In this document: positions 10,542 to 26,891 of the stretch, piece by piece | How the letters are laid out: each line of letters begins with the position of its first letter | Numbering within the stretch: position 1 is the stretch's first letter | DNA from: Rhizobiales bacterium UBA3584 | GTDB taxonomy: Bacteria > Pseudomonadota > Alphaproteobacteria > Rhizobiales > Devosiaceae | Direction of reading: 5' to 3' | Length of the DNA stretch: 64,000 nucleotides | Assembly: GCA_002375765.1 (NCBI GenBank) | Contig: DFMV01000016.1 | Coordinates: 135,002 to 199,001, forward strand | Notes under the pieces: generated by a model | Database searches by the model: none | Seen by the model: the letters and a program-made list of their open reading frames with translations, nothing else | Told to the model about the DNA's origin: nothing | Position numbers and translations under genes: made by a program

Positions 10542-13481
10542 ATGACATTGGCAAGATATACCGGAACCGTGCAGGACGCGGCGGGCAACGCTGTGGCTGG
10601 TTGTGAGATCGAGGTGCGCAGCGAAAGCACCGGACTTCTGGCGGTCCTTTATTCTGACAGGGACGGGCTCAATCAGATCAGCAATCGGTTCACGGCTCCA
10701 GACGCGACGTTTTCGTTCCACACCACGGGCGGGGCTTACCGAGTCACGGCGACTAAGGCCGGGTTCTCGGCAGAATGGCGCTTTGTGGCCATAGGGACGA
10801 TGCAGGAACAGGATGTCGAGGGCATTGTGTTCAGCCTGCAGGCGGGCATTGTTCCGGCCCTGACACGGGCCGAACTGGAGCTTTACATCCCGCCCGTGCC
10901 AGAGGAAGGCGAAGCTCTCCCCCGCGCCGGGGTGGTCTATGCCGATCCAGTCGCGTCGAACAACGGGTATTGGGTCTATAGCTTTGCTGATGAGGAATGG
11001 AAGTGGGCACGGCCCCTGTCCGATACGCTGGCAAGGCTGACGATTGTTGGCGGGGATGAAAACGCCATTGTTGCGACGGCTTCGCCAGGCGTTGATCCTG
11101 CATCGGTGATTGCGTTCTTCATCGACCCTTCGACGCCCAACACCGGCCCGGTGACGATCTCGATCAATGGCGATGATCCGGTTTCGGCCTATGATTACAC
11201 TGGGGCTGAATTTCCCGCTGGGGCGTTTTCTAACCGCCTGTTCCTAACGCGCGAGGCGGATGGATCTCTGCAGTCGGTAATGCCGGCTGACATCGTTGCG
11301 CAGGCCGCCGCCAAGCTGGAAGAATTCCTGTCCCATTTCCTTGGCAACTTCGCTGACGATACGGCTGCCGCAACGGCCGCCGGAACGCCAGTCGAGGGCC
11401 AGTTCTACTGGAACACCACGAGCAAGATCTATCGGTATTTTGATGGATCAACATGGCAGCCCTTCCCGTACGCGGCACTCGATGACGGGTCCGTTACCGA
11501 GCCCAAGCTTGCAAACGCTGTGGCCCTATCCCTCGCCAATGTGCAGCCGACGCGTGCTGGTATAGCCGCGCTTGATACCACACGCTACAACGTCGCCTAT
11601 CTGGCAGAGTCGGGGCGGGCGGGAGCGTTCCTTTGGAACCCGAGCGATCTTTCGGCAAGGCTGTCGCCGTCCTCGCTGACGACGACCAGTGTTGACGATG
11701 CGGGAGACGTTCTCACGCTCGCAGATCACGGGTTACGCACTGGCGACGGCCTATATCCAACCACGACAGCAGATGGTCTGACAGCAGAAACGATCTATCG
11801 AGTTATCGCGCAGGAAACAGATGCCGTATACTTCTATAATCAGACTGCGGCGTTTACGGTAGGTCAGACGCTGACAGGCGGCACTTCGGGCGCGACGGCG
11901 ACCATTGACAAGATCGATGATCGCGGGACGTGGGGCCTTCTTTATCTGAGCAATTTGACTGGCGCGTATGTCGTTGATGAGACGATTACCGATGGCGCGG
12001 GCGGCTCAGCAGACGCACAGAAGGTCAACGCCACCGAATACGACCCCGACCGTTTTCAAGTGGCATTGAACGCGACTGATGCCTTTGCGGGAACCGCCGT
12101 CAATCTCACAGGAACAACGAACCTCACCTTCAACAAGCATATTGACCCTGGAGAAGGTGTTTACATCATTCCAGATGGTTCTGCCATTGACGGATCGCAA
12201 GGCGCGTGGGTTCGTCAGCACGATGGCCCTCACGACATACGCTGGTGGGGTGGAAAGTCAGACAGCGGCACGACAAACAACGCTATTGCGCTCCACGATG
12301 CTCAGGCAGCGCTCCCGTCCGAAGGGGGCAGTATTTACGTCCCCGGCGCTTCAGGGTTTTACCAACTGAATAACAACTTCTACCTCAAGAGCCATAACTG
12401 GTTGGTTGGCGAGGGCGTTGCTTCGTTCCTAAAGGGCAACGGTGCGGGCGTTGTGGTTGATGCTGTCTCTTTCCCAGAGATACGCACCTTGTGGGGCATC
12501 GATAAGATCAGGGTTGACCGCGCCGGGGCGGTTGGGCCTGCCGTATTCCTGAGGGGCAAGGCTGTAAGCGGCCATGCGCCTGTTCGTGGTGTCATCCGCG
12601 ACTTGACAATCCGCGCATCTACCGGCGATGGGCTGGTCTCTGAGGGGTCATATCTTGTCGATATGTATAACCCCAATATTCACGATTTGACCAACGGCAT
12701 TGGGCTGAAGCTCACGCAAGACCCTAATGCATCTTTGGGCGCCTATGCATGGAAGGTGTACGGCGGCGAAATCGCCTGGTGCAATATAGGCGTTTTTATC
12801 TACCGCGCATTTGGTGTCCATTTTTACGGAACGGCCATTGAGGGCAACCTGACAAGAGGTGCCGATGTCAATGAATTCTCCGATGCGGTCGGGTTCTATG
12901 GGTGTTATTTCGAGGCGAACGGCGGCAGCACTGGGCAGGACATCCGCACTCCGCCGCTACAGGTTCGGGCTCCGCGCTCGCTCGTTATTGATGGGTGCAA
13001 CTTCCAGGACAGCGGAGGGAAAGACCATTCAATTGTACTGAATGCCGGAGAAAACGTCTCCGTCACTAACAATTGGTTCAACGGCTATCCTGTTTCAAAG
13101 GTCATGGTTGGCTCTGGTGTTACTGGGTATGAGCGCAACAATCGCGTCGACGCTTCCAGCCCCACCGTGGACACGTACCGCACCGGATTTCGTGCTCCGC
13201 TGGATGAACACGTGGTTACTGCGGAAGTTGTTTTTGATTGGCCTTCGATCGCGGCTGGCGGCGCATCATCTTCTACGTTTACAGTTTCCGGGGTCTCCGC
13301 AGGAGATATCGTCATCGGATGGTCAACTACGTCGACCGGGATTGTTGGTCTGCAAATGACAGCTGCGGTCGTCGGCACAAATACGGTCCGCGTTAATATT
13401 CACAACCCTTCCGGGTCGGCCGTTGACATGAGCAGCGCAACGTTCCGGTTTATTGTGCTGAAACAGGATGAATGGTTGTAG
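10542..13481 (+). CDS. Tailspike / tail fibre with beta-helix domain
   Basis: A 979-residue protein. Residues 1-105 form a carboxypeptidase-regulatory-like (Cna-B/Ig) module; an 'FYWNTTSKIYRYFDGSTWQP' segment lies near residue 290. From about 565 ('DIRWWGGKSDSGTTNNAIAL') to about 890 it has the start of a Pectate_lyase_3-type parallel beta-helix, common in tailspikes that cleave capsule or O-antigen, with a short C-terminal beta domain afterwards that may trimerise. No active-site residues can be assigned from sequence alone. The second half is visibly poorer in G+C (27 of 60 bases at 12781-12840) than the tape measure gene, suggesting exchange by recombination. It is followed by a strong hairpin and a convergent polysaccharide cassette. 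Confidence 0.8.
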   Translation: MTLARYTGTVQDAAGNAVAGCEIEVRSESTGLLAVLYSDRDGLNQISNRFTAPDATFSFHTTGGAYRVTATKAGFSAEWRFVAIGTMQEQDVEGIVFSLQAGIVPALTRAELELYIPPVPEEGEALPRAGVVYADPVASNNGYWVYSFADEEWKWARPLSDTLARLTIVGGDENAIVATASPGVDPASVIAFFIDPSTPNTGPVTISINGDDPVSAYDYTGAEFPAGAFSNRLFLTREADGSLQSVMPADIVAQAAAKLEEFLSHFLGNFADDTAAATAAGTPVEGQFYWNTTSKIYRYFDGSTWQPFPYAALDDGSVTEPKLANAVALSLANVQPTRAGIAALDTTRYNVAYLAESGRAGAFLWNPSDLSARLSPSSLTTTSVDDAGDVLTLADHGLRTGDGLYPTTTADGLTAETIYRVIAQETDAVYFYNQTAAFTVGQTLTGGTSGATATIDKIDDRGTWGLLYLSNLTGAYVVDETITDGAGGSADAQKVNATEYDPDRFQVALNATDAFAGTAVNLTGTTNLTFNKHIDPGEGVYIIPDGSAIDGSQGAWVRQHDGPHDIRWWGGKSDSGTTNNAIALHDAQAALPSEGGSIYVPGASGFYQLNNNFYLKSHNWLVGEGVASFLKGNGAGVVVDAVSFPEIRTLWGIDKIRVDRAGAVGPAVFLRGKAVSGHAPVRGVIRDLTIRASTGDGLVSEGSYLVDMYNPNIHDLTNGIGLKLTQDPNASLGAYAWKVYGGEIAWCNIGVFIYRAFGVHFYGTAIEGNLTRGADVNEFSDAVGFYGCYFEANGGSTGQDIRTPPLQVRAPRSLVIDGCNFQDSGGKDHSIVLNAGENVSVTNNWFNGYPVSKVMVGSGVTGYERNNRVDASSPTVDTYRTGFRAPLDEHVVTAEVVFDWPSIAAGGASSSTFTVSGVSAGDIVIGWSTTSTGIVGLQMTAAVVGTNTVRVNIHNPSGSAVDMSSATFRFIVLKQDEWL

Positions 13482-13525: not shown

Positions 13526-14701
13526 TCAAGCGCGATGAGTGGCGGCAACAGGCCCAATGCTACGAGCGGCCAGCACGTATACGAACACAAGTGCAACAAT
13601 GGATATGCTGATTGCCAAATCCGCTGATCCGCTCAAAGCGAAAAGCGCGTAAAACATCGCCATCAGCACCACTGAAAGCAACGCTGGGAACGTGGTGTTG
13701 AAGATGGGAGAAAGGGGTCTGAGGACGAATATGTAGTAGGCCAAGGGCTGCGCAACTAAAAACAGTGAGGCTGCAAGCAGCGTGATCCGATTGAACGAAG
13801 GGCTGCCGAAAGCCAACTCGTAGGCGAGAGGGAAAGCCGCAACCAGGACGGATGCAAAGACCAAATAAGAAGCCCCATAATATCGCAACAACGTGGGCAG
13901 TTCCGTATCGCCGAATGCCAGGTGCCGCTGGATCGATGCCTGAAGTTTTGCGAGGGGGACGACGTTTATGAAGCGCCCTGAACTTATCGCGGCCATGAAG
14001 ATGCGGAATTCGCCAATGGTGGCCGCCGTTGCTCCGGCGTATCCGAGAACGATCGTTGTGAGGCCGGTTATGCATATTGTGGGCAGACGAAACGATAACC
14101 CGCCTGCGAGTGTTCCAAAAGAGGGCCGGTCCCACCGAAACGACACCCTGCGCTGAGTCAGTAGAATGCCGCCTACAATCGTGGACGCCAAGGCAAAGCC
14201 AGCCAAGTTGGCAGCAATAATGGCTCCTTCGATATCCAGATAGACCATGGACACGAATGTCACGAGATAAGCCGCAAGGGAGGTGTATCGGGCAACTGCT
14301 GCGAGTTTCACATCTTTCAAGGCAAACGCGGCCGCGCCAATGAGAGAGTAGAGGGCGTAAAATATGGCGACGAAGATCAGCAGAATGATATCGAAGTCGC
14401 CTATCGTTGCCGCGACGGCGATTGTCATTAACACGCCTGTTTGAAGAGCGATATTCGAGAGATTGATGTTGGCTGTTTCGCCGTCGGTGCTTGAGTTCAA
14501 GTCAGCCTGATAGGATGGTTCCAGAAGCGCCTGGGCAAAGAACACCGGCGCCAAAAACAGCATCTGCGCACCGAATGCCGCAACGCCGATAATGAACGGG
14601 GCCACGAATGACTGAAACATCATCAGGGCAATGTTGCCAAACTGAAAGTGAATCGATGGGCTTCTAACTGCCCTGATCAGAAGCGATAGAAGTTTTTTCA
14701 T
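13526..14701 (-). CDS. Polysaccharide flippase-like membrane protein (prophage cargo)
   Basis: A 391-residue protein with about ten to twelve hydrophobic segments spread over its whole length and few polar loops, resembling the polysaccharide transporter (Wzx/MATE-like) class that flips lipid-linked sugar repeat units across the inner membrane. It is a little shorter than usual for Wzx (roughly 400-480). GGGGGG precedes the ATG on the minus strand. Encoded 115 bases downstream of an O-antigen polymerase-like gene and opposite to the phage late genes. G+C is low: hand counts give 30 of 60 (14401-14460) and 32 of 60 (13741-13800). The class assignment is by topology and context; another multi-pass transporter is possible. 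Confidence 0.6.
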   Translation of the reverse strand: MKKLLSLLIRAVRSPSIHFQFGNIALMMFQSFVAPFIIGVAAFGAQMLFLAPVFFAQALLEPSYQADLNSSTDGETANINLSNIALQTGVLMTIAVAATIGDFDIILLIFVAIFYALYSLIGAAAFALKDVKLAAVARYTSLAAYLVTFVSMVYLDIEGAIIAANLAGFALASTIVGGILLTQRRVSFRWDRPSFGTLAGGLSFRLPTICITGLTTIVLGYAGATAATIGEFRIFMAAISSGRFINVVPLAKLQASIQRHLAFGDTELPTLLRYYGASYLVFASVLVAAFPLAYELAFGSPSFNRITLLAASLFLVAQPLAYYIFVLRPLSPIFNTTFPALLSVVLMAMFYALFALSGSADLAISISIVALVFVYVLAARSIGPVAATHRA

Positions 14702-14815
14702 TATGACCCCCCGAAAAGTTACACTGAGCGAGACCGAGCGTTAAGAATATTGCGACAGCGCTTTGCGTTATCACGAAGCATATCTGCACAAAACTGGCAA
14801 ACGCCAGTGCGACAA

Positions 14816-16162
14816 TCATCTTTTTCGTGCTGACTTGTCGCTCTGTAGGGTGGGCAACGCACTCGCAGCAGCTAGCCCGATGAACACCATGGGGTCGTCG
14901 ATCAACCCTTGGTGCAGAACCGCCATGCCGATAAGTGCGCCACGGTAGGCTAGCAGCCCGATAAAAAATACCCGCGTTTCCGGATCAGAAGGACGCAGGG
15001 CTGATCGTATGTGATGAGGGATGCCATAAAAAGCCAGCAACAGAATTATCGCAAGCCCGAGGACATATCCGTGTCGATAGATGATCATCACATAGGTAAT
15101 GTGCGGAGCACGGACGATGCGCTCCACTCCACTGGGCGTAGTGACTGTCTGTCGTGTGCCTGCGCCAATCCCGAAAAGCGCCGACTGCCAGCTTGAATTC
15201 GTAAGGGCGAGAAAGTACTCGGCCTCTGCCAAACGTGTTCCCAAGCCAGCCGCGTTAGAGGCGATAGCGGCCTCCCAACGACTGTGGGCTTCGGTCGCGT
15301 CGGTGAAAGTGGAAGGATCTTCCCCGCCAACGCCGGTGTCGGACGCTGTGCCATATTCGTAATCTGGCGTAGACGGCAGCGCTTCATCTTCAAATACGGC
15401 GCTCGCATCCAATCGACCAAACCCCGGCATGGAGACAACCATAGGAATCAAGGCTATAATTATCACGAAGGCGCTTATCGCTCCGAGTGTGATGCTTCTA
15501 GGCGTGTGCCGGAAGATTCCTGCTAAGGCAAAAAGTCCGCAAATTCCCGCAGCCAGGATTGTCCCGGCCACCACGGAACGCGTAAGCCCGAGCGAGAAGA
15601 TTGCCACCACGGCAAGTAGGGCAGCAGCGAGAGCACCCAGTTGGCGTCTTCGGCAATAGAGGGTGAGTGGAATCAGGAGAGCAGGGAGAAACACTTCCCA
15701 CTGAATCCCGTACCGCATTATTCGGTTGGCAATGAGAAGATGAATGACGGTTCGGAGCACAACCCAAACGGCTAGCGAGCTTATGATTGCGGTAAGGATG
15801 GTCCGGATGGGGAGCGTTCGGAACATCAGCAAGCCAAAGAGCAGATAGCCCACGGGCAATGCGTACCGAACCGCATCGGCTATCATGTCGATCCCGAAAT
15901 TGCCGTTGATGATTCCGATGATGAAATACGGCGATATTAGAAGGAACCAGAGGGCAGCGAGCCAGTTGAACTGCCTAAGCATAGGTCGGGCGACTGGCAA
16001 CCACACAGCGCCTTGTGCAAGAACCCACACCGCAAACGCGAGGCGCATGAACTCACGGCGCTGGTCCGGGTCCATATAGACGCGCAGGTCGTACCAGCCG
16101 ATTTTAGAGAAAAGAACGAAACAGAACGTCCAGAATACGGCGGTCGCGAAACGCGCGTTCAT
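14816..16162 (-). CDS. O-antigen polymerase/ligase-like protein (prophage cargo)
   Basis: A 448-residue protein with about twelve membrane segments and one large polar loop (about residues 245-355, from 'GFGRLDASAVFEDEALPSTP' on) followed by 'RAPHITYVMIIYRHGYVLG'. This is the layout of Wzy polymerases and WaaL-type ligases, which join lipid-linked sugar units in the periplasm; the histidine in 'APHITY' corresponds to the H of the family's H(N)xYL-like motif. AAGGAAAG precedes the ATG. Low G+C (28 of 60 at 15001-15060, versus 37 of 60 at 5161-5220 in the tape measure gene). It sits inside the phage late region, so a serotype-conversion role is inferred, as in phages that carry their own wzy. 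Confidence 0.7.
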   Translation of the reverse strand: MNARFATAVFWTFCFVLFSKIGWYDLRVYMDPDQRREFMRLAFAVWVLAQGAVWLPVARPMLRQFNWLAALWFLLISPYFIIGIINGNFGIDMIADAVRYALPVGYLLFGLLMFRTLPIRTILTAIISSLAVWVVLRTVIHLLIANRIMRYGIQWEVFLPALLIPLTLYCRRRQLGALAAALLAVVAIFSLGLTRSVVAGTILAAGICGLFALAGIFRHTPRSITLGAISAFVIIIALIPMVVSMPGFGRLDASAVFEDEALPSTPDYEYGTASDTGVGGEDPSTFTDATEAHSRWEAAIASNAAGLGTRLAEAEYFLALTNSSWQSALFGIGAGTRQTVTTPSGVERIVRAPHITYVMIIYRHGYVLGLAIILLLAFYGIPHHIRSALRPSDPETRVFFIGLLAYRGALIGMAVLHQGLIDDPMVFIGLAAASALPTLQSDKSARKR

Positions 16163-16227: not shown

Positions 16228-16252
16228 GCCCCGCCATAGAGCGGGGCTTTTT
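16228..16252 (+). terminator. Intrinsic terminator between cargo cassette and lysis genes
   Basis: A perfect 7-bp stem GCCCCGC/GCGGGGC (16228-16234, 16241-16247) with a CATAGA loop and five T, oriented rightwards. Because the flanking cassette is transcribed leftwards from 16162, this terminator most likely once ended the tail-fibre transcript; the cassette would then have been inserted between the tailspike gene and its terminator. Confidence 0.75.
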
Positions 16253-16365
16253 CATATCCATCCACAGGTGAACCAGTGAACTTCGTTGGAACGGGGCACG
16301 GCCTTGCGCAGGGCGACGTTGGCACCTGCACACCCTGACCATCAAACATCGATAAGGAGGCCGTG

Positions 16366-17049
16366 ATGGCCCGAGAGAACTTCGCTTCGGCGTTGACGGA
16401 GGTGCTTGCCCATGAGGGTGGGTATGTGAACAATCCTGCCGATCCGGGTGGCCCAACCAATCTCGGCGTCACGCTGGGAACGGCCAAGCGGCTGGGAATT
16501 GACGTAGATGGCGACGGCGACACCGACATCATCGACATAAAGCTGCTCCAGCCTGCCGATGCGGCCAAGGTCTATCGAGCAGAATACTGGAACAAGGTGC
16601 GCGGCGATGATCTGCCGTCCGGGCTCGATTTTGCCGTGTTCGACTTTGCCGTGAACTCAGGACCGGGCAGGGCAGCGAAATATCTCCAGGCACTGGTTGG
16701 CGTTGCTCAGGACGGTTCCATTGGTCCGAAGACCCTGGCAGCGGTCGCGGCATACGACCCCGCCAAGCTTATCGACCGGCTCTGTGATCGCCGCATGACC
16801 TTCCTGCGCAATCTCTCACACTGGTCCACGTTCGGCAAAGGCTGGACCCGCCGAGTGGAAGGCGTGCGCGCCGTTGCCAAGCAGATGGCGGCCCAAGCGC
16901 CAGAGATGCCCACGCAGCCGCAAAAGCCCGTTCCGTCGCCGCAAGCACCCGAAACGGGCAAACCCCACTCTCCGATCAAATCTGGCGGTCTTGTCGCCAT
17001 CCTCGTAGGGGCCGCCGCTTTGGTGGCCTTCTTTATTTTCGGTCGCTGA
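16366..17049 (+). CDS. GH108-type endolysin (N-acetylmuramidase) with C-terminal membrane anchor
   Basis: A 227-residue lysis enzyme cutting peptidoglycan glycan strands. The N-terminus has the GH108 signature 'HEGGYVNNPADPGGPTNLGV' (residues 16-35) with the catalytic Glu17; a peptidoglycan-binding_3 domain follows ('DFAVNSGPGRAAKYLQALVG' to about residue 170). Residues 46-54 (DVDGDGDTD) form a DxDGDGxxD calcium-loop-like insertion. A Pro/Gln-rich linker (about 178-203) leads to one hydrophobic segment at 207-225, close to the end. ATG 16366 is chosen because AAGGAGG lies five bases upstream; GTG 16363 would be too close. First gene of the lysis block. Confidence 0.85.
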   Translation: MARENFASALTEVLAHEGGYVNNPADPGGPTNLGVTLGTAKRLGIDVDGDGDTDIIDIKLLQPADAAKVYRAEYWNKVRGDDLPSGLDFAVFDFAVNSGPGRAAKYLQALVGVAQDGSIGPKTLAAVAAYDPAKLIDRLCDRRMTFLRNLSHWSTFGKGWTRRVEGVRAVAKQMAAQAPEMPTQPQKPVPSPQAPETGKPHSPIKSGGLVAILVGAAALVAFFIFGR

Positions 17050-18106: not shown

Positions 18107-18529
18107 CTATGTCCCGCCATGCGGATTTCTCCCCGTGGCCTTACGGTCAAATTCTGCCATGTCATCGGTCCATCTGTGAATAGCGGCGTAGACCGCTTCT
18201 GGTTCCCATCCGGCCTTGAACGCCGTGCTGCATATATGGGCCAATGATCCCGCTATGGCATCGAGGCACGCATCTGGCAGGGCTTCCGCATCCGCATCCT
18301 CTGGCGGGGGCTGTATCGTCATGTTGGCGATAAAGCTCTCCCGCTCATCCTCCAGCACCAGCAGTTTCCCGACGGCTTCTTTCACGAGCTTGCGCAGCGC
18401 AACATAGTCCTGCCATGCCTCCGGGGTGGCCTTGCGATGCTCCTCGGCCTTCCTGCGGGCCAGCTCGAGCTTTGTCACGAACTCGCTGGGCACTCTGTTG
18501 CCGATGGTCCATAGGCGATCTTCTGGCAT
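18107..18529 (-). CDS. Prophage accessory protein with KAGW motif (B)
   Basis: A 140-residue, mostly helical and acidic protein; 'LELARRKAEEHRKATPEAWQ' and 'YVALRKLVKEAVGKLLVLED' read as a coiled-coil or helical bundle, followed by the C-terminal KAGWxxExVYAA motif it shares with the downstream 55-residue protein, nine bases away. The two genes probably form one leftward operon at the right end of the prophage. No known domain is recognised, and no membrane segment or catalytic motif is seen. Roles such as superinfection exclusion are only speculation. Confidence 0.65.
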   Translation of the reverse strand: MPEDRLWTIGNRVPSEFVTKLELARRKAEEHRKATPEAWQDYVALRKLVKEAVGKLLVLEDERESFIANMTIQPPPEDADAEALPDACLDAIAGSLAHICSTAFKAGWEPEAVYAAIHRWTDDMAEFDRKATGRNPHGGT

Positions 18530-18765
18530 GAAGCGTGTCCTCCGTCCTCTGTCGTGGCTCAGGACGGGCGTTTATGCCATGGGCGGGACTGTGGGCGCTA
18601 GGAGATGTTTCGCCGCTGTGTGAGAACGAATCTCGAACCTGTCGTGGGAATGTCGTGGGACTTTTTGTCCCGCACTGCGCAAATCGGCGCTGATCTTTCC
18701 GTTTCGTTCTCCCCGGGCGTGATCGGCGGGGGATGCCGAAAAGCCCGGGAAAGAAACGGTTTTGA
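18530..18765. other. Prophage-chromosome junction region without clear genes
   Basis: No convincing gene is seen in these 236 bases. A frame that runs from here through the tRNA on the minus strand is a shadow of the tRNA sequence. A short hairpin (GTGGGAC, TTTTT loop, GTCCCGC) lies near 18655-18675, beside a direct repeat of GTCGTGGGA. The stretch contains or borders the right attachment core; the promoter of the KAGW operon should also be here, reading left. Confidence 0.5.
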
Positions 18766-18842
18766 TGGTCGGAGCGGCCGGATTTGAACCGACGACCCTT
18801 TGTCCCCCAGACAAATGCGCTACCAGGCTGCGCTACGCCCCG
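18766..18842 (-). tRNA. tRNA-Pro (GGG), likely prophage attachment gene
   Basis: A 77-base cloverleaf on the minus strand with acceptor CGGGGCG pairing to CGCTCCG, encoded CCA, T-loop GGTTCGAATCC and anticodon loop CTGGGGG, giving anticodon GGG. The 3' end points left, directly at the prophage, the normal geometry for integration into a tRNA 3' end that leaves the gene intact. A second copy of the 3' part is expected at the far (left) end of the element. Confidence 0.93.
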
Positions 18843-18963: not shown

Positions 18964-19131
18964 ATGCCGATACTTTTGATCGTGCTGGTGGCCATTCTGA
19001 TCGGCACCGTGGGCTTTTGGGATTCGCTGGGAGCGCTGCTCGGCGCAGTCGTCGTTTTGGGCCTGTTCTGGCTATTGGTGGCCATAACCGGAATTCTTGC
19101 CGTGCTGTGGCTGGTCCGAAAGATATTTTAA
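18964..19131 (+). CDS. Small two-helix membrane protein
   Basis: A 55-residue frame (MPILLIVLVAILIGTVGFWD...) made almost wholly of two hydrophobic helices separated by a short turn and ending in a basic 'WLVRKIF' tail. It lies between the tRNA-Pro gene and the exopolysaccharide locus and overlaps the end of the convergent polymerase gene by four bases. Function unknown; high hydrophobicity and compact length suggest a real small membrane protein rather than a chance frame. Confidence 0.55.
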   Translation: MPILLIVLVAILIGTVGFWDSLGALLGAVVVLGLFWLLVAITGILAVLWLVRKIF

Positions 19132-20393
19132 GGCAGTTGGCGCTCTCGCCGTTCAGTGTGAGGCGCCGCAGCGCAAATACCCCACACCAGTCCTGTTACC
19201 AGGAACCAGTGTCTCCAGTGATCGGTATCGATGATTCCCGATAGGGCGATCATCGGCACAAACGTGGCAAACACCGGAATCAGGAGTGGGCGGTGGGCGC
19301 GATGGACCAGTGCCTTGCTGCCGGCCACCAGGGTCGATCCGACAAGAAGGTAATAGATGATTGCGCCGCCCCAGCCATACGTCAAAGCGACATTGAGATA
19401 AGTGTTGTGCGGCTGCTCGGTGATGCGCAGAAATCCGTATTCCAGCGGACCTATACCCCAGGGATGGGTCAGGACCACATCGATCGTGTACCAGATGCGC
19501 CCGAAACGGCCCAACTCGCCGGTGTCATAACTCTGGGTAAGGGAAAATCGCTGGGCGAAAAGCTCAGAGACCACCGGGATCGACAGGAGCACCGCCATGG
19601 CGGCGGCCAACATCATCAGCCCGCCGATGGCGATCAACAGCAGGCGCACTTTTTCCCGCGCCGACGCCTCAAGGAAAAACACCATGGCGAAGGTCAGAAG
19701 GGAAGAAGCGGCCAGATGGCCCCATGCGCCGCGCGAAAAGCTCACGAAAACGCCCACAAAGATGACGAGATAAGCAGCGCCGTTCCAAAGGGAGGAGCGC
19801 CCGCTTGTTAGCAGTACTCGCTGCAAAACAAACATCGCTGGAAGAATGAGGAAGGGGCCATAAACGTTGGGGTCGTTAAAAAACGCCTTGGCACGACCAA
19901 ACCGCAGGAACACATCCTCACCCGGCAAAAAGCCCATATAGGCCAAAGTTCCGACAACGGACGCGATCAGCGCAATGGCAACATAGGCCTTGGCGATCAG
20001 TCGCATATTGGTATGGGGCGCCTGAGCCACAAAGTTGGCGACGAAATAGCTTGTGATCAGTAGAAAGATCGTAACGAGATTGAAGATCAATCCATCAAGC
20101 ACGCCCTGGTAGACCATGAAAAATGGCGAGATCAGAGCAAACGGCGCAAAAGCAACGACTATGAACAGCAGGGGCAATGTCTGGCGCCGTAGCTGCAGCC
20201 CGCCGGCCAGCGCTACGGCAAAGGCAAGCAGAAACATCACCTCATAGGGTGATGGTTCGACGATCACGAACCCTCCTGAAAAAATCCATATGCCGACGAT
20301 CAGCCCCAGCGCCTTTCTGGCGCTCGCGCCGAGCCACGCCCGGCCACGCTCGGACTGCGCAAGCGCGGTTGGAGCGGGCAGGGCGAGGGTCAA
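19128..20393 (-). CDS. Exopolysaccharide polymerase / O-antigen ligase family protein
   Basis: About 421 residues if started at TTG 20393, which overlaps the stop of the upstream sugar-transferase gene (TTGA); the frame is open further upstream but only into that gene. About ten membrane helices, a large periplasmic loop near the middle-to-end, and the motif 'EQPHNTYLNVALTYGWGG' are hallmarks of Wzy/WaaL/ExoQ proteins, which polymerise lipid-linked repeat units in the periplasm. Last gene of the leftward EPS operon. It is unlike the prophage polymerase at 14816-16162 in sequence, so the two are not recent duplicates. Confidence 0.75.
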   Translation of the reverse strand: MTLALPAPTALAQSERGRAWLGASARKALGLIVGIWIFSGGFVIVEPSPYEVMFLLAFAVALAGGLQLRRQTLPLLFIVVAFAPFALISPFFMVYQGVLDGLIFNLVTIFLLITSYFVANFVAQAPHTNMRLIAKAYVAIALIASVVGTLAYMGFLPGEDVFLRFGRAKAFFNDPNVYGPFLILPAMFVLQRVLLTSGRSSLWNGAAYLVIFVGVFVSFSRGAWGHLAASSLLTFAMVFFLEASAREKVRLLLIAIGGLMMLAAAMAVLLSIPVVSELFAQRFSLTQSYDTGELGRFGRIWYTIDVVLTHPWGIGPLEYGFLRITEQPHNTYLNVALTYGWGGAIIYYLLVGSTLVAGSKALVHRAHRPLLIPVFATFVPMIALSGIIDTDHWRHWFLVTGLVWGICAAAPHTERRERQLP

Positions 20394-21919
20394 AACGCGT
20401 TCTCGTTCTTGGTGAACAGAGAAATTGGTGTCATCACAAGGATGTAGAGGTCGAGCAGGATGGACCAGTTCTCGATGTAATAAAGGTCGTGATCGACGCG
20501 GGCCATCAGCTTGTCGACCGTATCGGTTTCGCCGCGCCAACCGTTGATTTGCGCCCACCCGGTGATGCCGGGCTTAACCTTGTGTCGCGCAAAATAGCCA
20601 TGGACTGCATCGTGATAAAGCCGGTTGGCGGCTTTCGCCTCCAGCGCATGGGGGCGCGGGCCCACGATGGAAAGCTCTCCCTTGAGGACGTTGAAGAGCT
20701 GCGGCAGTTCGTCGATGGACGTCTTGCGAATTATCCGTCCGACCGGGGTAACGCGCGGATCGTTGCGTGTGACGAGCGTTGACGCTTTGGCGTCGCTCAT
20801 GTCGGTGTACATTGACCGGAATTTATAGACTGCGATCAACTCGTTATTGAAGCCGTGACGGTTCTGTTTGAAAAGAACCGGCCCCTTGCTCGTCGCTTTG
20901 ACAGCGATGGCCGTCCCGATCATCACGGGCGAGAGCACGACGAGCGCGAACAGCGCGACGAGCTTGTCAAACACCCATTTGAAAACAAGATTCCAGTCCG
21001 AAATCGGCCGGTCGGCCATCTCGAAGACCGGGAGATCGCCGACATAGGAATAGGTCTTGTCGGTAAAGCGCAGCTTGCTCATATGGGCGCTGAGCCGGAT
21101 ATCGACCGGGAGCACCCACAGTTGGCCCAGCATTTCGAGCAGGCGGGATTCGGCCGACAGAGGCATCGAAACGATGACCAGATCGATGCGGGCGCGGCGC
21201 GCGAACTCAACAAGATCGGCAACCTTGCCGAGCTTTTTTACCCCGGCGACCGCCTCGGGAGAGCGTTCGTCATAGCGGTCGTCGAACAGACCTATGAGGT
21301 CGATATCGCTGGTCGCGCTTTTTTCGATTGCCCCGATAAGAGCTTCGGCCGCGGGGCCTCCGCCGACGATCACAGTGCGCCGCCGCAGGCGGCCCTTGGT
21401 GGACCAGTCAAGGACCAGCGCCCGTAGTGTCAGGCGATAGAAGACCAGCGCGACCCCGCCCGATAATGCCCAACTGCCAAGCCAGATTCGCGAAACCAGA
21501 TCGCCCGCCTTGAAGGCGAAAAGGCCGGCGACGACAAGCAGGAAGACACCAGTCCAGCCCCCCAAAACACGCAGGATTTGCTTGAAAAGCGTCCTGTAGG
21601 CCGCAATGCGGTGGGTGCGGGCAACGTTGAAGGCGATGTTTGCCGCTGCCACGATGCCGAGCGAAAGCGGCACATAAAGCACCGGATCGATCCCGCCGAG
21701 ATAAAACAGATAAATACCCAATCCGAGCGTCAAAAGCAGCACGGCTTCGATCAGCTGAGCAAAGCCGGAGACCAGTTTATGCGAAAGCGTTGGCGAGACG
21801 GGGGCCTGCACGGCCGCCTCCGCATCCGCGCCAAGCGTCCCCATGGTTCCGGTGCTCGCGGATATGTGGCTGAGTACGGCTTCTTTGGGATCGACCCTGA
21901 ACACGGGTTGGCCTCGCAC
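20390..21919 (-). CDS. Undecaprenyl-phosphate sugar phosphotransferase (WcaJ/ExoY type)
   Basis: A 509-residue polyprenyl glycosylphosphotransferase that starts each repeat unit by moving a sugar-1-phosphate to undecaprenyl phosphate at the inner membrane. Four N-terminal membrane helices (to about residue 165), a Rossmann-like CoA-binding_3 domain (from 'RRTVIVGGGPAAEALI'), and the C-terminal catalytic domain with 'GPVLFKQNRHG', 'KFRSM', 'RKTSIDELPQLFN' and 'SIVGPRP' are all present. The frame opens at GTG 21919; a GTG at 21904 has a better-placed GAGG and may be the true start. Confidence 0.85.
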   Translation of the reverse strand: MRGQPVFRVDPKEAVLSHISASTGTMGTLGADAEAAVQAPVSPTLSHKLVSGFAQLIEAVLLLTLGLGIYLFYLGGIDPVLYVPLSLGIVAAANIAFNVARTHRIAAYRTLFKQILRVLGGWTGVFLLVVAGLFAFKAGDLVSRIWLGSWALSGGVALVFYRLTLRALVLDWSTKGRLRRRTVIVGGGPAAEALIGAIEKSATSDIDLIGLFDDRYDERSPEAVAGVKKLGKVADLVEFARRARIDLVIVSMPLSAESRLLEMLGQLWVLPVDIRLSAHMSKLRFTDKTYSYVGDLPVFEMADRPISDWNLVFKWVFDKLVALFALVVLSPVMIGTAIAVKATSKGPVLFKQNRHGFNNELIAVYKFRSMYTDMSDAKASTLVTRNDPRVTPVGRIIRKTSIDELPQLFNVLKGELSIVGPRPHALEAKAANRLYHDAVHGYFARHKVKPGITGWAQINGWRGETDTVDKLMARVDHDLYYIENWSILLDLYILVMTPISLFTKNENAF

Positions 21920-21995
21920 TGATTGTCATGAATTCGTGCGCGGGACTATGAGGTGCCGATGGTGAAAAGGCGTTAAAACCGCCCTCGGCAATTGG

Positions 21996-23117
21996 TCAAA
22001 TGGTTAGCGACTGGTAGAGAGCCTCGATCTCGTCGACCATGCGGGTCAGCGAGAAGCGAGAATGGACGAATTCACGGCGCGCCTCTGCTTCGGACTCAAA
22101 AGAGGCCGGGTCGGCAAGAAACGCCGCCATGGCATCTTTGAGGGGCGCGGAATCCTCGGGCGCAATCAGGCTTTGCGACGTCGGGCCGAAAATTTCTCCG
22201 ATCCCCCCAACATCGGTGGCGATGACCGGCCTGCCAGCCGCCGCCGCTTCCATCACAACGTAGGGCAGCGACTCGGCACGAGAGGGGACCAGAACGCACC
22301 GTCCGCTTGCGAAAATCTCCCGCGCGGGACGAATGCCGGCCAACCTGACGCGATCGGTTAGTCCCATTTGGCCGATGCGATCACGCAAAGCTGCAGCGTC
22401 AGGGCCGTCGCCAGCCATGATGATACTGGCGGGGCGACCATCTGGTGCCTTGAGCGGTGCCAAGGCCTCAACGATCAGATCGATGCCCTTGAGAGTCCGC
22501 AATTCACCGACAAAGGCAAAATCTGCAGCATCGGGATTGGGATTTATGGGGATGAACTCGGCCTCGGCTAATCCGTTGTGGATCACCTCCTGTCGCCCGT
22601 GTGGCGGACTGACATGGGAGGCAAAGGTCGTCTGCGCATAGCGGCTTTCAAAGATCAGCGCATCCGTCAGCCGCAAGAGCGTGCGTTCGATAGTCATGAA
22701 CGCGCCACCCGACAGCGAGCGCGGATCGAAATGCAGCGCACCCCCATGCGGCGTGTAGACCGCGCGGGCCTGCTTTCGACCTATACGCGCCAGCCTGGCG
22801 CCAAAGCCGCCCTTGGCGCCGTGCCCGTGCAGGATGTCGGCCCGCAATGACTTGGCCAGTGCACGAATCTTGTAGGGGGTCGTGATGTCCTGCGGCCCCA
22901 GCAGGCGCGGGATGGAGAAGCGATGGATGCCCAGTGCGGCGAACGGCGCGATGGTCGCCAGCTTGGCGTCGGATTGCGCATCGCCACTTTCATCCACCAC
23001 GATGCCGATCTCGTGTCCCCGTTCTGCAAGGGTGCGCGTGAGATCGGCAACATGGCGGAAGAGGCCGCCGACCGGAGCGCGCATGACCTGCAGAATGCGC
23101 AGGCTGTTGTTGGCCAC
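21996..23117 (-). CDS. Glycosyltransferase family 4
   Basis: A 373-residue GT-B enzyme adding a sugar to the lipid-linked EPS unit. The N-terminal domain has 'APVGGLFRHVADLTRTLAER' (acceptor side), and the C-terminal domain 'FVGELRTLKGIDLIVEA' and the nucleotide-sugar motif 'SRAESLPYVVMEAAAAGRPV', with the E-x7-E glutamates. Starts at GTG three bases after the exporter gene's stop, so it belongs to the same leftward operon. Donor and acceptor sugars cannot be told from sequence. Confidence 0.8.
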   Translation of the reverse strand: MANNSLRILQVMRAPVGGLFRHVADLTRTLAERGHEIGIVVDESGDAQSDAKLATIAPFAALGIHRFSIPRLLGPQDITTPYKIRALAKSLRADILHGHGAKGGFGARLARIGRKQARAVYTPHGGALHFDPRSLSGGAFMTIERTLLRLTDALIFESRYAQTTFASHVSPPHGRQEVIHNGLAEAEFIPINPNPDAADFAFVGELRTLKGIDLIVEALAPLKAPDGRPASIIMAGDGPDAAALRDRIGQMGLTDRVRLAGIRPAREIFASGRCVLVPSRAESLPYVVMEAAAAGRPVIATDVGGIGEIFGPTSQSLIAPEDSAPLKDAMAAFLADPASFESEAEARREFVHSRFSLTRMVDEIEALYQSLTI

Positions 23118-23120
23118 AGC

Positions 23121-23678
23121 TCAGATCCAGCGTTCTGCGATAACGATGGTATCGCCCGGCAGGATCGGGAAGTCGAGTTCGACGCTCCCTTTGACCATCT
23201 CGTTGCCCTGGCGGCGGTAAATTGTTGCGGTGTTGCGGTTTGCCGTATCGGTAAAGCCGCCCGCAGCACTGATCGCGGCCCGCACCGTCATGCCGTAGGA
23301 ATAGGAGTATTGCCCGGAAGAACCGACTGCACCCTGGATGAAAAAGGGCCTGTATTCAGCAACTTCCACGGCAACGTTGGGGTTTCGCATATAGCCGGCA
23401 GCCAGAGCCGATGCGACCTTGCGCGACAGCGCTTCGGTGGTTGCGCCGCGGGCCTGCACCGCGCCCACCAGCGGCATGGCGATGGCGCCGGAATCGTCGA
23501 CCCGGTAGGTGTTGGTGAGGTTGGCATCGCCGTAAACGCTGACCCGCAGTACATCGCCGCTGTCGAGCAAATAAGGCCCGCTCTGTTCGACCAGATAGGT
23601 GGCCGGGCGTCCGCTATGTGCGCACGCGCCCAAAAAAAGCGGCAACAAAAGCAAGGCTAGGCGCAGCCGACCCATCAT
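23121..23678 (-). CDS. Polysaccharide export lipoprotein (Wza/ExoF type)
   Basis: A 185-residue outer-membrane export protein: signal peptide with lipobox 'LFLGAC' (about residues 14-19), then the Poly_export domain ('YLLDSGDVLRVSVYGDANLT' and 'AIAMPLVGAVQARGATTEAL') and a SLBB-like segment. Short compared with full Wza (about 380), as is usual in alphaproteobacteria. First gene of the leftward EPS operon, divergent from the co-polymerase gene across 141 bases. Confidence 0.8.
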   Translation of the reverse strand: MMGRLRLALLLLPLFLGACAHSGRPATYLVEQSGPYLLDSGDVLRVSVYGDANLTNTYRVDDSGAIAMPLVGAVQARGATTEALSRKVASALAAGYMRNPNVAVEVAEYRPFFIQGAVGSSGQYSYSYGMTVRAAISAAGGFTDTANRNTATIYRRQGNEMVKGSVELDFPILPGDTIVIAERWI

Positions 23679-23723
23679 ATCCGTCCCGTTTCATGCAGTG
23701 AGCTTACGTCTCCCACGTCATGG

Positions 23724-23738
23724 TTAAAAAGCTCTTAG
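23724..23738. promoter_or_regulatory. CtrA-like box in the divergent EPS promoter region
   Basis: TTAA, seven bases, TTAG: one mismatch to the alphaproteobacterial CtrA consensus TTAA-N7-TTAA. It lies in the 141-base interval between the divergent exporter and co-polymerase genes. A single near-match is weak evidence; chance is possible. Confidence 0.25.
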
Positions 23739-23819
23739 CGCGAGCCGGGCGAAAAGGGGGCTTAACCGAATGCTTACCATGTCGGGGCGATAAGCGCGTG
23801 ACGAACGAAGGGCGACCAA

Positions 23820-25835
23820 ATGAGCGATTCCGCATCCGGGGCAGATAGGTCCGAGGAAAGCATAGACGCTGGCGTCATTCTCAAAGCGGTGTTCTCAAAG
23901 CTGCTTCGCATCGGGTTTGTGACCGTGCTGCTGCTGGCGGCCGCTTATGTGGTTTTGCAGTTTGTGCCCAGGCTCTATGAATCCCGGGCCGAACTTCTCG
24001 TCGAGCCACGCAGTACGGCCTATACAAGCGCCGCGAGCAATCAGAGTGCTGAAACCTATTATATCGACATCGCGACCGTTTCGAGCCAGATCGAATTGAT
24101 CAAGTCGCGGGACACGATCCTTGCTGCCGTGGAGACTGCGGCGCTCGGCGACGAGTCAGCCTTCGAGGGGTGGAGCGACAACAGGATCATTGGCGAAATC
24201 GCTGAAAACCTTGTCGTGACGCAAGAACGCAGCTCCCGGCTGATTTCGGTGGCCTATCGCCACACCGATCCTGAATTGGCGGCCAGGGTCGCCAATGCCA
24301 TCGTTCGGGCCCACGTCCAGAGGCGGGCTGGCCAGCAGATATCCGATACGGTCGACGCGACAGCGTGGCTGCAACAGGAAATCGACCGGTTGCGCCAAAG
24401 CGTTGTCGCTGCGGAGCGGGCCATCGCCGATTACCGAGTTCAGAATGATTTGTTTACGGGGTCCAACAACGAGAGCCTGACCAATCAGCAGCTCTCCAAT
24501 TTTTCGTCACAGATCACCGCAGCCAACGAGCGGCGCAATGCAGCCCAGTCACGAGCTCAACTGATCCGGAGCCTGCTTGAATCCGGGCAGTCGGTTGGCG
24601 GGGTCTCTGATGTGCAGGCTTCTTCTGTCGTGCAGCAGCTTAGCCAGGAACTGGCGCGCCTGCAGGGAGAGCGCGCCCAGCAAGCGGCAACATTCCTGCC
24701 CAGCCATCCCACGATCCGCGCGCTCGACGCCCAGATCGCCGAAATCAATTCCCAGATTGCCAGCGAAGGGCGCCGGGTCGCCCAAGCCCTGGAAGCTCAG
24801 GCTCAAATCGAGGCCGATCTTGAGCAGTCCCTCCGCGCTGAACTCGATCGGGTCAAAGTGACCGCTGGTGCCGATACCATCGAAGGTGTCGGCCTCGCCG
24901 AGCTCGAACGCGAGGCAGCTGCGCAGCGCGAACTGCTCAACGCCTATCTGCTGCGCTTCACCGAGGCGTCGGCGCGGTCTGACATGAGTTCGGCGCTGCC
25001 CGACGTGCGCATCGTCAGTGAAGCTGTGCCGGCATCTTCGCCCGCATCGCCGAAGTCAAGCCTGGTGCTCCTTGCGGTCGGCGTTGCTTCGGTTCTCCTG
25101 CAGACTGGCGCTGTTATTTTCTCTGAGCTCTTGTCGGGCCGCGCGCTGGTCGAACGGACGGTGCGCAAAGTCAGCTCCGAGATCAGCGAAGAAAAGAATG
25201 CCGCGGGCACACCGGCTTTGGCAGACGAGGCGGCCAAGCCGGCATCTTCACCTCCGTTGGCGATAATCGGTCATCGGCCTCCAGCGGACCTTATCGACAC
25301 CGAAATCGAAGCGCTCGCCGCCAGCGTCCTGGCGCGGCTCGACAGGTTGGTCATTGTTGCGTCCGACCGCGACGACGAGGAAAGCCTTGCCTTTGCCGAG
25401 CGGCTCACGGCCGCGGTGGTGGAAAACGGCCAGAGTGTAGCGGAAATCGATGCGGCGAGTGGTCAGCAGGGCATAGAGATGGGGCTCACCGATCTATGCG
25501 CGGAAGGCGCCGACTTCGGAGATGTCGTGCACCGGGGTGCTGACGACCGATTTGCCTTCGTGCCCTGGGGACAAGGAACCCGGCTCAACCGCAACACCGA
25601 ACGCGTTGCTACCCTGGTTGATGCACTGTCAGATATCTATGAGGTTATCGTTGTTGTGACGGGCCGGGTCGGCATGACCTCGAGCCTGCCGCTCTTTGCC
25701 GGCGTTGAGGGCAAATGTGTCCTGCTCTCCTCGATAGGGGCCAGCAACAGTGCTGCCGCCAGGGAAATCGGCGCGCTCGGCTTCTCCGATGTCCGCATCA
25801 TTGCGACTGCCGAAGCGCAGTCCGAAGTCGCCTGA
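23820..25835 (+). CDS. Wzc/GumC/ExoP-like chain-length co-polymerase, kinase-like domain degenerate
   Basis: A 671-residue inner-membrane protein controlling EPS chain length and export. It has a first membrane helix near residues 31-53, a Wzz domain with long periplasmic coiled coils (about 55-415), a second helix near 418-437, and a cytoplasmic C-terminal domain of P-loop fold. The latter lacks a Walker A (GxxxxGK[ST]) motif where BY-kinases have one ('LVIVASDRDDEESLAFAERL'), and no C-terminal tyrosine cluster is seen, so it is probably not an active tyrosine kinase. AAGGG precedes the ATG. Confidence 0.85.
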   Translation: MSDSASGADRSEESIDAGVILKAVFSKLLRIGFVTVLLLAAAYVVLQFVPRLYESRAELLVEPRSTAYTSAASNQSAETYYIDIATVSSQIELIKSRDTILAAVETAALGDESAFEGWSDNRIIGEIAENLVVTQERSSRLISVAYRHTDPELAARVANAIVRAHVQRRAGQQISDTVDATAWLQQEIDRLRQSVVAAERAIADYRVQNDLFTGSNNESLTNQQLSNFSSQITAANERRNAAQSRAQLIRSLLESGQSVGGVSDVQASSVVQQLSQELARLQGERAQQAATFLPSHPTIRALDAQIAEINSQIASEGRRVAQALEAQAQIEADLEQSLRAELDRVKVTAGADTIEGVGLAELEREAAAQRELLNAYLLRFTEASARSDMSSALPDVRIVSEAVPASSPASPKSSLVLLAVGVASVLLQTGAVIFSELLSGRALVERTVRKVSSEISEEKNAAGTPALADEAAKPASSPPLAIIGHRPPADLIDTEIEALAASVLARLDRLVIVASDRDDEESLAFAERLTAAVVENGQSVAEIDAASGQQGIEMGLTDLCAEGADFGDVVHRGADDRFAFVPWGQGTRLNRNTERVATLVDALSDIYEVIVVVTGRVGMTSSLPLFAGVEGKCVLLSSIGASNSAAAREIGALGFSDVRIIATAEAQSEVA

Positions 25836-25844
25836 GCGAACCAG

Positions 25845-26891
25845 GTGCCCCGTTACGGAGTTTACAGGGCTGCCTTTGAGGCATTGGCACTACCGGGGAT
25901 TGCGGCCGGACTGCGGCGGTTTTCGGCGGCGCGCGGGCTCATCTTTACCCTGCACAGGGTTTTGCCCGATGCCCCGGCAGCATTTTCGCCCAACTCCATC
26001 CTGCAGATCCGGCCCGACTTTCTCGAAGCTGTCATCGTGCGTGCGCGAGAGGCCGGTTTCGATATCGTCGATCTCGACGAGGCTACAAGGCGCATCGCGA
26101 GCGAGGATGCCAAACCCTTCATCGTTCTCACTTTTGACGACGGCTATCGCGACAATCTCGTCCACGCCTTGCCAATCCTGCGCAAGCATGCGGCTCCCTT
26201 CACCCTCTATATCCCGACCGGTCTGATCGATGGGGTGGGGCTGGTCTGGTGGCAGGCGCTTGAGGATATCATTGCCGCCAATGACGTCGTTGTCGTTGAG
26301 ATGCCCGAGGGACCGCACTACGGCGATGCGGGAACATTGGAGCAAAAGAATACCACTTTTGCTCACATCTACCAGCGCTACCGCAAAATGCCCGAACCTC
26401 AGCGCGAGGCGTCGATCAGGACGCTGGCGCAGCGCTATGGCCTCGACCTGGGGGCGCACTGCCGCGGTCTCATTATGGATTGGTCCGAGCTCAGGACGTT
26501 CACCGACGAGCCGCTCTGCACTATCGGCGCGCACACAGTCCATCATTACGAGCTTTCAAAGCTTGACGAGAACCAGATGCGGGCCGAGATTGAGCAATCG
26601 GCCAATGTGCTCGAAGCCCAGTTCGGCACGCGACCTCGCCATCTGTCCTATCCCATCGGCGGCGTTGCCGCCGCCGGGCCGCGCGAGTTTGCCGCCGCGA
26701 CCGACCTTGGATTTGCCACTGCCGTGACCACGCGCCCGGGCGGCCTCTACGCCGAACACGCCGCCCACCTCAACGCGCTGCCTCGCGTGTCGCTCAATGG
26801 ATTGTTTCAGAAACAGCGATTCATTGACGTGTTCCTGACCGCCGAAATGTTCACCCTGATGCGGCGCGGTCGTCGGCTCGATGTGGAATAA
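25845..26891 (+). CDS. Polysaccharide deacetylase (NodB family)
   Basis: A 348-residue carbohydrate esterase 4-type enzyme, starting at GTG nine bases after the co-polymerase stop. Motif 1 'LTFDDGYRDN' supplies the Asp pair and motif 2 'GAHTVHHYEL' the HxxxH zinc ligands; 'SYPIGG' lies where the R/PxY motif is expected. These enzymes remove N- or O-acetyl groups from sugars; here probably the EPS made by the neighbouring genes. It has no signal peptide, so it may work on lipid-linked intermediates in the cytoplasm. Confidence 0.85.
   Translation: MPRYGVYRAAFEALALPGIAAGLRRFSAARGLIFTLHRVLPDAPAAFSPNSILQIRPDFLEAVIVRAREAGFDIVDLDEATRRIASEDAKPFIVLTFDDGYRDNLVHALPILRKHAAPFTLYIPTGLIDGVGLVWWQALEDIIAANDVVVVEMPEGPHYGDAGTLEQKNTTFAHIYQRYRKMPEPQREASIRTLAQRYGLDLGAHCRGLIMDWSELRTFTDEPLCTIGAHTVHHYELSKLDENQMRAEIEQSANVLEAQFGTRPRHLSYPIGGVAAAGPREFAAATDLGFATAVTTRPGGLYAEHAAHLNALPRVSLNGLFQKQRFIDVFLTAEMFTLMRRGRRLDVE

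Follow-up and report, generated by a model that had tools for sequence, protein, structure and literature searches.

Conversion of host surface polysaccharides by prophages is already known, and the gene pair described here, for a predicted polymerase and a predicted flippase, appears to be a new combination among such systems. The pair occupies positions 13,526 to 16,162 of a 64,000-nucleotide stretch of Rhizobiales bacterium UBA3584 (assembly GCA_002375765.1, contig DFMV01000016.1, positions 135,002 to 199,001), hereafter the window, and lies inside a prophage. We propose, with a probability of roughly 55%, that it is a moron-type accessory cassette of a temperate phage that converts the surface polysaccharide of the lysogen and excludes phages.

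Among the closest described systems, taken here from the accessible parts of the cited papers, are prophages of Acinetobacter baumannii in which wzy1Ph and wzy2Ph lie near depolymerase genes, and in which the new capsule form is speculated to guard the lysogen from close relatives (PMC13228068); a change of linkage by a prophage Wzy has been shown (PMC9241936). The UBA3584 prophage shares with the wzy1Ph and wzy2Ph prophages a terminal integrase, closeness of depolymerase and wzy genes (near the other end for wzy2Ph) and a Wzy-type cargo, and with one A. baumannii prophage the insertion in a tRNA gene, the authors proposing exclusion by the changed capsule. It differs from them in host and protein family; linkage changes were shown there by chemistry and are predicted here, and the accessible text of PMC13228068 has no mention of wzx.

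Pseudomonas phage D3 carries Wzy-beta, a phage-borne O-antigen polymerase that changes the linkage (PMC4815439); a phage-borne polymerase is thus common to D3 and, as predicted, to the present locus, but the D3 unit as described in the accessible text has no Wzx. Conversely, the P22-type gtrABC conversion operon includes a flippase, GtrA (PMC11436027), as does, by prediction, the present pair, but no polymerase. Surface-polysaccharide machinery as prophage cargo is also represented by nine capsule systems in prophages (figure legend, PMC6322790) and by a roseobacter prophage with rfbABCD (PMC8224337). Unlike the former, which were detected as capsule systems, the UBA3584 locus comprises two genes only and would depend on host-made repeat units. 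In the accessible parts of the open-licence literature, no description of a prophage with only a Wzx and Wzy pair was found.

The gene pair lies inside a complete temperate prophage

The main features, in window coordinates, are:
14816..16162, minus strand: WaaL/Wzy-class membrane glycosyltransferase-like gene, 448 aa, first gene of the pair
13526..14701, minus strand: Wzx-like gene for a putative MOP-fold flippase, 391 aa, second gene of the pair
10542..13481, plus strand: tailspike-like gene, 979 aa, with a beta-helix region (Pfam Beta_helix, E 2.2e-5; PHROG tail-fibre family, E 1.8e-35)
16228..16247, plus strand: rightward terminator-like hairpin between the pair and the endolysin gene, 7 G-C pairs followed by TTTTT
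16363..17049, plus strand: endolysin gene, glycosyl hydrolase 108 (Pfam and PHROG scans)
18765..18813, no strand: right attachment-site core (attR), 49 bp, identical to the left repeat
18766..18842, minus strand: tRNA-Pro(ggg), the integration target, whose 3' end is the right repeat

The contig that carries the window measures 208 kb and belongs to a 3.95-Mb genome in 87 contigs, with a completeness of 92.8%. The prophage begins about 29.1 kb before the window, ends at window position 18.8 kb and is bounded by 49-bp identical repeats, the left one (-29130..-29082, upstream of the window) being adjoined by the integrase open reading frame (ORF). PHROG matches within it cover an integrase, CI-like repressor, terminase, portal, primase-helicase, head morphogenesis, major tail and tape-measure protein, as well as tail-fibre proteins and the endolysin. 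In a complete genome of the same species, G533, the integration site is unoccupied, with left and right flanks 99.94% and 99.96% identical that overlap by exactly the 49-bp core. These repeats, phage genes and empty site show that the prophage is real and a complete temperate phage, and G533 offers a ready control for a direct test. Measured inward from the right end of the prophage, the gene pair occupies 2.6-5.2 kb. The prophage is also on record as a 47.6-kb viral contig; over 15,001 compared positions this second record and the window disagree at 10, none of them inside the pair, and each of the two long frames is open in both records without any difference.

The sequence-only reading had described two minus-strand genes between the tailspike gene and a rightward terminator preceding the endolysin gene, with lower G+C than the backbone, and this layout was borne out. 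Terminator-like sites as a class were not enriched there (6 found against a mean of 4.5 in shuffles). The G+C contents of the pair, 53.4% and 55.8%, rank lowest in a comparison of 22 ORFs, of which the remaining 14 from the prophage range from 57.0 to 62.9% and the 6 from the host from 57.2 to 62.7%. Their GC3 values (61.7% and 61.2%) are at the low edge and overlap two other prophage ORFs (61.0% and 62.2%), so that part of the drop in G+C reflects amino-acid composition. Shine-Dalgarno-like purine-rich stretches were recognised by eye before both starts.

Fold and family of the two proteins

The pair had been called flippase-like and O-antigen polymerase-like, with a comparison of structures to the Wzx and Wzy families suggested as a check. 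The check came out in favour of this assignment, the folds being recognisable as MOP flippase and WaaL/Wzy rather than unlike them, but the identity stood only in part, as the proteins lack Wzx or Wzy profile matches and the nearest solved structure is a ligase. The earlier interpretation is supported in its anatomy and partly supported overall. Neither protein had a meaningful match in Pfam, PHROGs, NCBIfam or PADLOC (best E about 0.2, at chance level), defence-system models gave no match, and among solved structures no credible sequence relative was found for either family of the pair or for the tailspike. The hydropathy counter used, which undercounts membrane segments, gave 7 for each protein.

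The 391-aa protein has a recognisable MOP-type flippase fold. Among curated profiles it matched no Pfam family at E <= 1, no NCBIfam model and no PHROG, and 4 of 4 homologues likewise matched no Pfam family; we therefore name it Wzx-like and not a member of PF01943. Its gene adjoins the polymerase-like gene both here and in a distant locus (L006, see below), without an adjacent glycosyltransferase gene. The protein is probably a Wzx-class lipid-linked-oligosaccharide flippase, predicted to flip undecaprenyl-linked repeat units. GtrA, by comparison, is a small protein that belongs to a different family and handles lipid-linked glucose.

For the 448-aa protein, a WaaL/Wzy fold is recognisable, and its best solved-structure match is WaaL, a ligase. 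It had no Wzy_C (Pfam) match at E <= 1; two of five homologues matched this domain (2.3e-6 and 4.6e-5), both below the strength of the curated cut-off. Residues R195 and H354, which we take to be candidates for the conserved Arg and His of the Wzy/WaaL active region, are invariant in 6 of 6 members of the family. An hhalign comparison of this family with the host Wzy_C family was weak (12.6% probability) and paired H354 with host H384. We infer that the protein is probably a WaaL/Wzy-class membrane glycosyltransferase acting as a polymerase rather than a ligase.

It might instead be a ligase, WaaL- or oligosaccharyltransferase-like, that places flipped oligosaccharides onto a new acceptor (lipid A core or protein), resulting in capping or glycosylation and not in a new linkage. 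We regard this as unlikely, though it survives best among the alternatives. It draws on the WaaL match and on PF04932, which is named O-antigen ligase, is weakly matched by two homologues and holds both ligase and polymerase activities. On the other side, no match named Wzy occurred among the 50 Foldseek matches listed, nor in a second look, and the nearness to WaaL may reflect library content only. A ligase with its own flippase but without glycosyltransferases would also, to our knowledge, be unusual.

Proposed conversion of the lysogen surface

Under the conversion proposed here, and provided that the pair is expressed in the lysogen, the substrate would be undecaprenyl-linked repeat units supplied by the glycosyltransferases of the host. 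The flippase would move the unit outward, the polymerase would join the units by its own linkage, and the surface polysaccharide, presumably the glycan affected, would be altered. The likely benefit is that phages needing the original polysaccharide would fail to adsorb, and we hypothesize that those with the same tailspike would be among the excluded ones. A dedicated flippase might be required where the phage polymerase accepts no other partner, or where the exported repeat unit is a different one. If true, prophage-driven conversion would extend beyond Pseudomonas, Salmonella, Shigella and Acinetobacter, where it is known, to a probable environmental alphaproteobacterium, and such cassettes would be undercounted, since their proteins escape the models of Pfam, PHROGs, NCBIfam and PADLOC.

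Several points weigh against conversion. A mere change of linkage requires no flippase. Neither protein matches Wzx or Wzy profiles, and the 448-aa protein, whose structure model is of middling confidence, is nearer to a ligase than to a proven polymerase. No glycosyltransferase or acetyltransferase was found among the scanned prophage proteins (two sets of 10 and those scanned with Pfam and PHROGs, a subset of the ORFs). A minus-strand sigma-70-like promoter was not found between 13300 and 16600, a search that alphaproteobacterial promoters could escape. Finally, no viral relative with the pair was found, and selection as a phage cassette is thus without support from recurrence.

Host polysaccharide genes

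The host probably belongs to Hyphomicrobiales, judging by hits of one of its proteins in the plasmid collection at 51-57%. Directly across attR from the prophage lies a host exopolysaccharide cluster (19128-26891) that encodes a Wzy_C protein, a sugar transferase, a glycosyltransferase, Poly_export and Wzz/GNVR proteins and a deacetylase:
19128..20558, minus strand: Wzy_C protein of the host exopolysaccharide cluster, outside the prophage, a possible functional partner or competitor of the pair

This Wzy_C protein is the sole PF04932 match in the genome. PF01943 had no match in this genome (G000), and the single PF13440 match is MurJ, as judged by eye from its sequence start and neighbours; 10 of 13 genomes of the genus had a PF01943 match. 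We draw no conclusion from this that a host flippase is missing, since Wzx profiles miss the phage flippase itself and the genome may be incomplete. G533 carries a group of sugar-nucleotide dehydrogenase, epimerase and PF01943 flippase genes (L113, 6632-11461), followed by a 327-aa ORF without a Pfam match, with an IS110-type transposase gene 4-5 kb from the group. Apart from the epimerase (72%), this group has no DNA match in the UBA3584 genome; the polysaccharide genes therefore differ between the two strains, a gap that may be real or due to incompleteness.

Such differences, together with the unmatched PF01943, would also fit a benefit to the lysogen from new or more abundant exopolysaccharide, in surface attachment or protection, with exclusion not being the selected effect. 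This seems to us rather unlikely: at 92.8% completeness the absences are weak, and the place beside the tailspike gene recalls published prophages with a depolymerase near Wzy (PMC13228068, in its accessible part).

Distribution and origin of the pair

A protein search, which scored about 8,000 candidates sharing most words per query, returned at least four other relatives of the flippase and at least five of the polymerase. Among these homologues, P0008 comes from a 694-kb contig, and P0002, P0006 and P0010 come from contigs of 7-25 kb. Among species-representative genomes there was one related flippase locus, L006, on a 4.2-kb contig of a metagenome-assembled genome. There, the last codons of a polymerase homologue (hmmsearch E 2.9e-6, 24 positions) stand ahead of the flippase homologue (47%), and behind it comes an amino-acid ABC transporter operon, identified by eye; this short contig shows no visible phage gene. 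Because L006 has the order polymerase-flippase without a visible phage gene, the pair is a two-gene unit whose occurrence is not confined to visible prophages. The sequence-only reading had held that the same genes at a non-phage locus in related genomes without any prophage would count against it; L006 is a distant locus on a short contig, and in the genus of the window the polymerase was found in this genome alone. The L006 transporter ATPase is closest, in the plasmid collection, to alphaproteobacterial Microvirga (66%), while the bin is labelled Candidatus Sumerlaeia and may be misbinned.

A polymerase homologue was present in 1 of 151 genomes and 1 of 13 in the genus, its own in both, and in 2 of 385 in the class, its own and a partial match in G333 (profile positions 297-429, E 6.4e-5). 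The flippase was found in 2 of 397 genomes of the order, its own and G746 (50 profile positions with a stop, E 2.6e-4). The samples overlap, those of class and order were drawn from larger groups, and G533 was covered for the polymerase, the flippase not being searched there. On these samples, vertical inheritance as host genes was rejected. Ordinary host genes at a prophage edge were likewise rejected, given the position inside the att repeats and the empty site in G533. No shared phage gene was found: phage records gave no match, viral contigs only the record of this prophage, and PHROGs nothing convincing.

Of 86 viral loci related by tail-fibre or endolysin, only two, both representing this prophage, had comparable genes; many of the loci are short and may miss the comparable place, and the counter was crude, so that relatives could be missed. 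A looser repeat, in which 53 loci with upstream sequence were listed by hand and the remainder were run in another loop, yielded in addition no more than a 129-aa ORF (L016) and the tape-measure protein of this prophage. In L014, whose endolysin matches at 69%, about 0.45 kb separates the endolysin gene from the preceding large gene on the same strand, with only a 78-aa ORF on the opposite strand within it. Relatives of the tailspike, sought to see whether it travels with the cassette, were limited to the same prophage and one 50-residue match. Lying inside the att repeats, with the G533 site empty and absent from the related viral loci, the pair is thus carried as an accessory by a temperate phage. 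That it is a passenger, bacterial genes acquired by chance with little or no expression and no present function, would agree with its lower G+C, the missing promoter and the lack of another viral carrier but is improbable given open and identical frames in two differing prophage records, the purine-rich stretches before both starts and two recognisable folds.

A small ORF between the two genes and other ORFs

One further feature joins the pair:
14664..14819, minus strand: tentative 51-aa hydrophobic ORF, which may not be a gene

It overlaps both neighbours, its ATG sharing the sequence ATGA with the stop of the polymerase gene and its end running into the start of the flippase gene. A simple shuffle control, selected post hoc, gave frames open for as long in 18% of shuffles and frames that were also as hydrophobic in 0.3%. 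No homologue was found, and the gap in L006 contained no comparable hydrophobic ORF by eye. The ORF is possibly an Iap-like inhibitor peptide, or a product of chance; the conversion unit of phage D3 reportedly consists of three genes, including such a peptide (Iap) and an acetylase. It is a far-fetched extension of the conversion proposed above that the polymerase, a small, translationally coupled membrane peptide silencing the host polymerase as Iap does in D3, and a dedicated flippase together replace the whole flip-and-join step, leaving the phage's own tailspike blind to the lysogen.

Between the lysis-region genes and attR, a 140-aa ORF (18107-18529, minus strand) has no significant match in Pfam, PHROG or PADLOC. 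Elsewhere in the prophage, a 137-aa ORF (L003, 2116-2529, minus strand) matches TonB_C above the curated cut-off (E 2e-6), which is odd in a phage early region.
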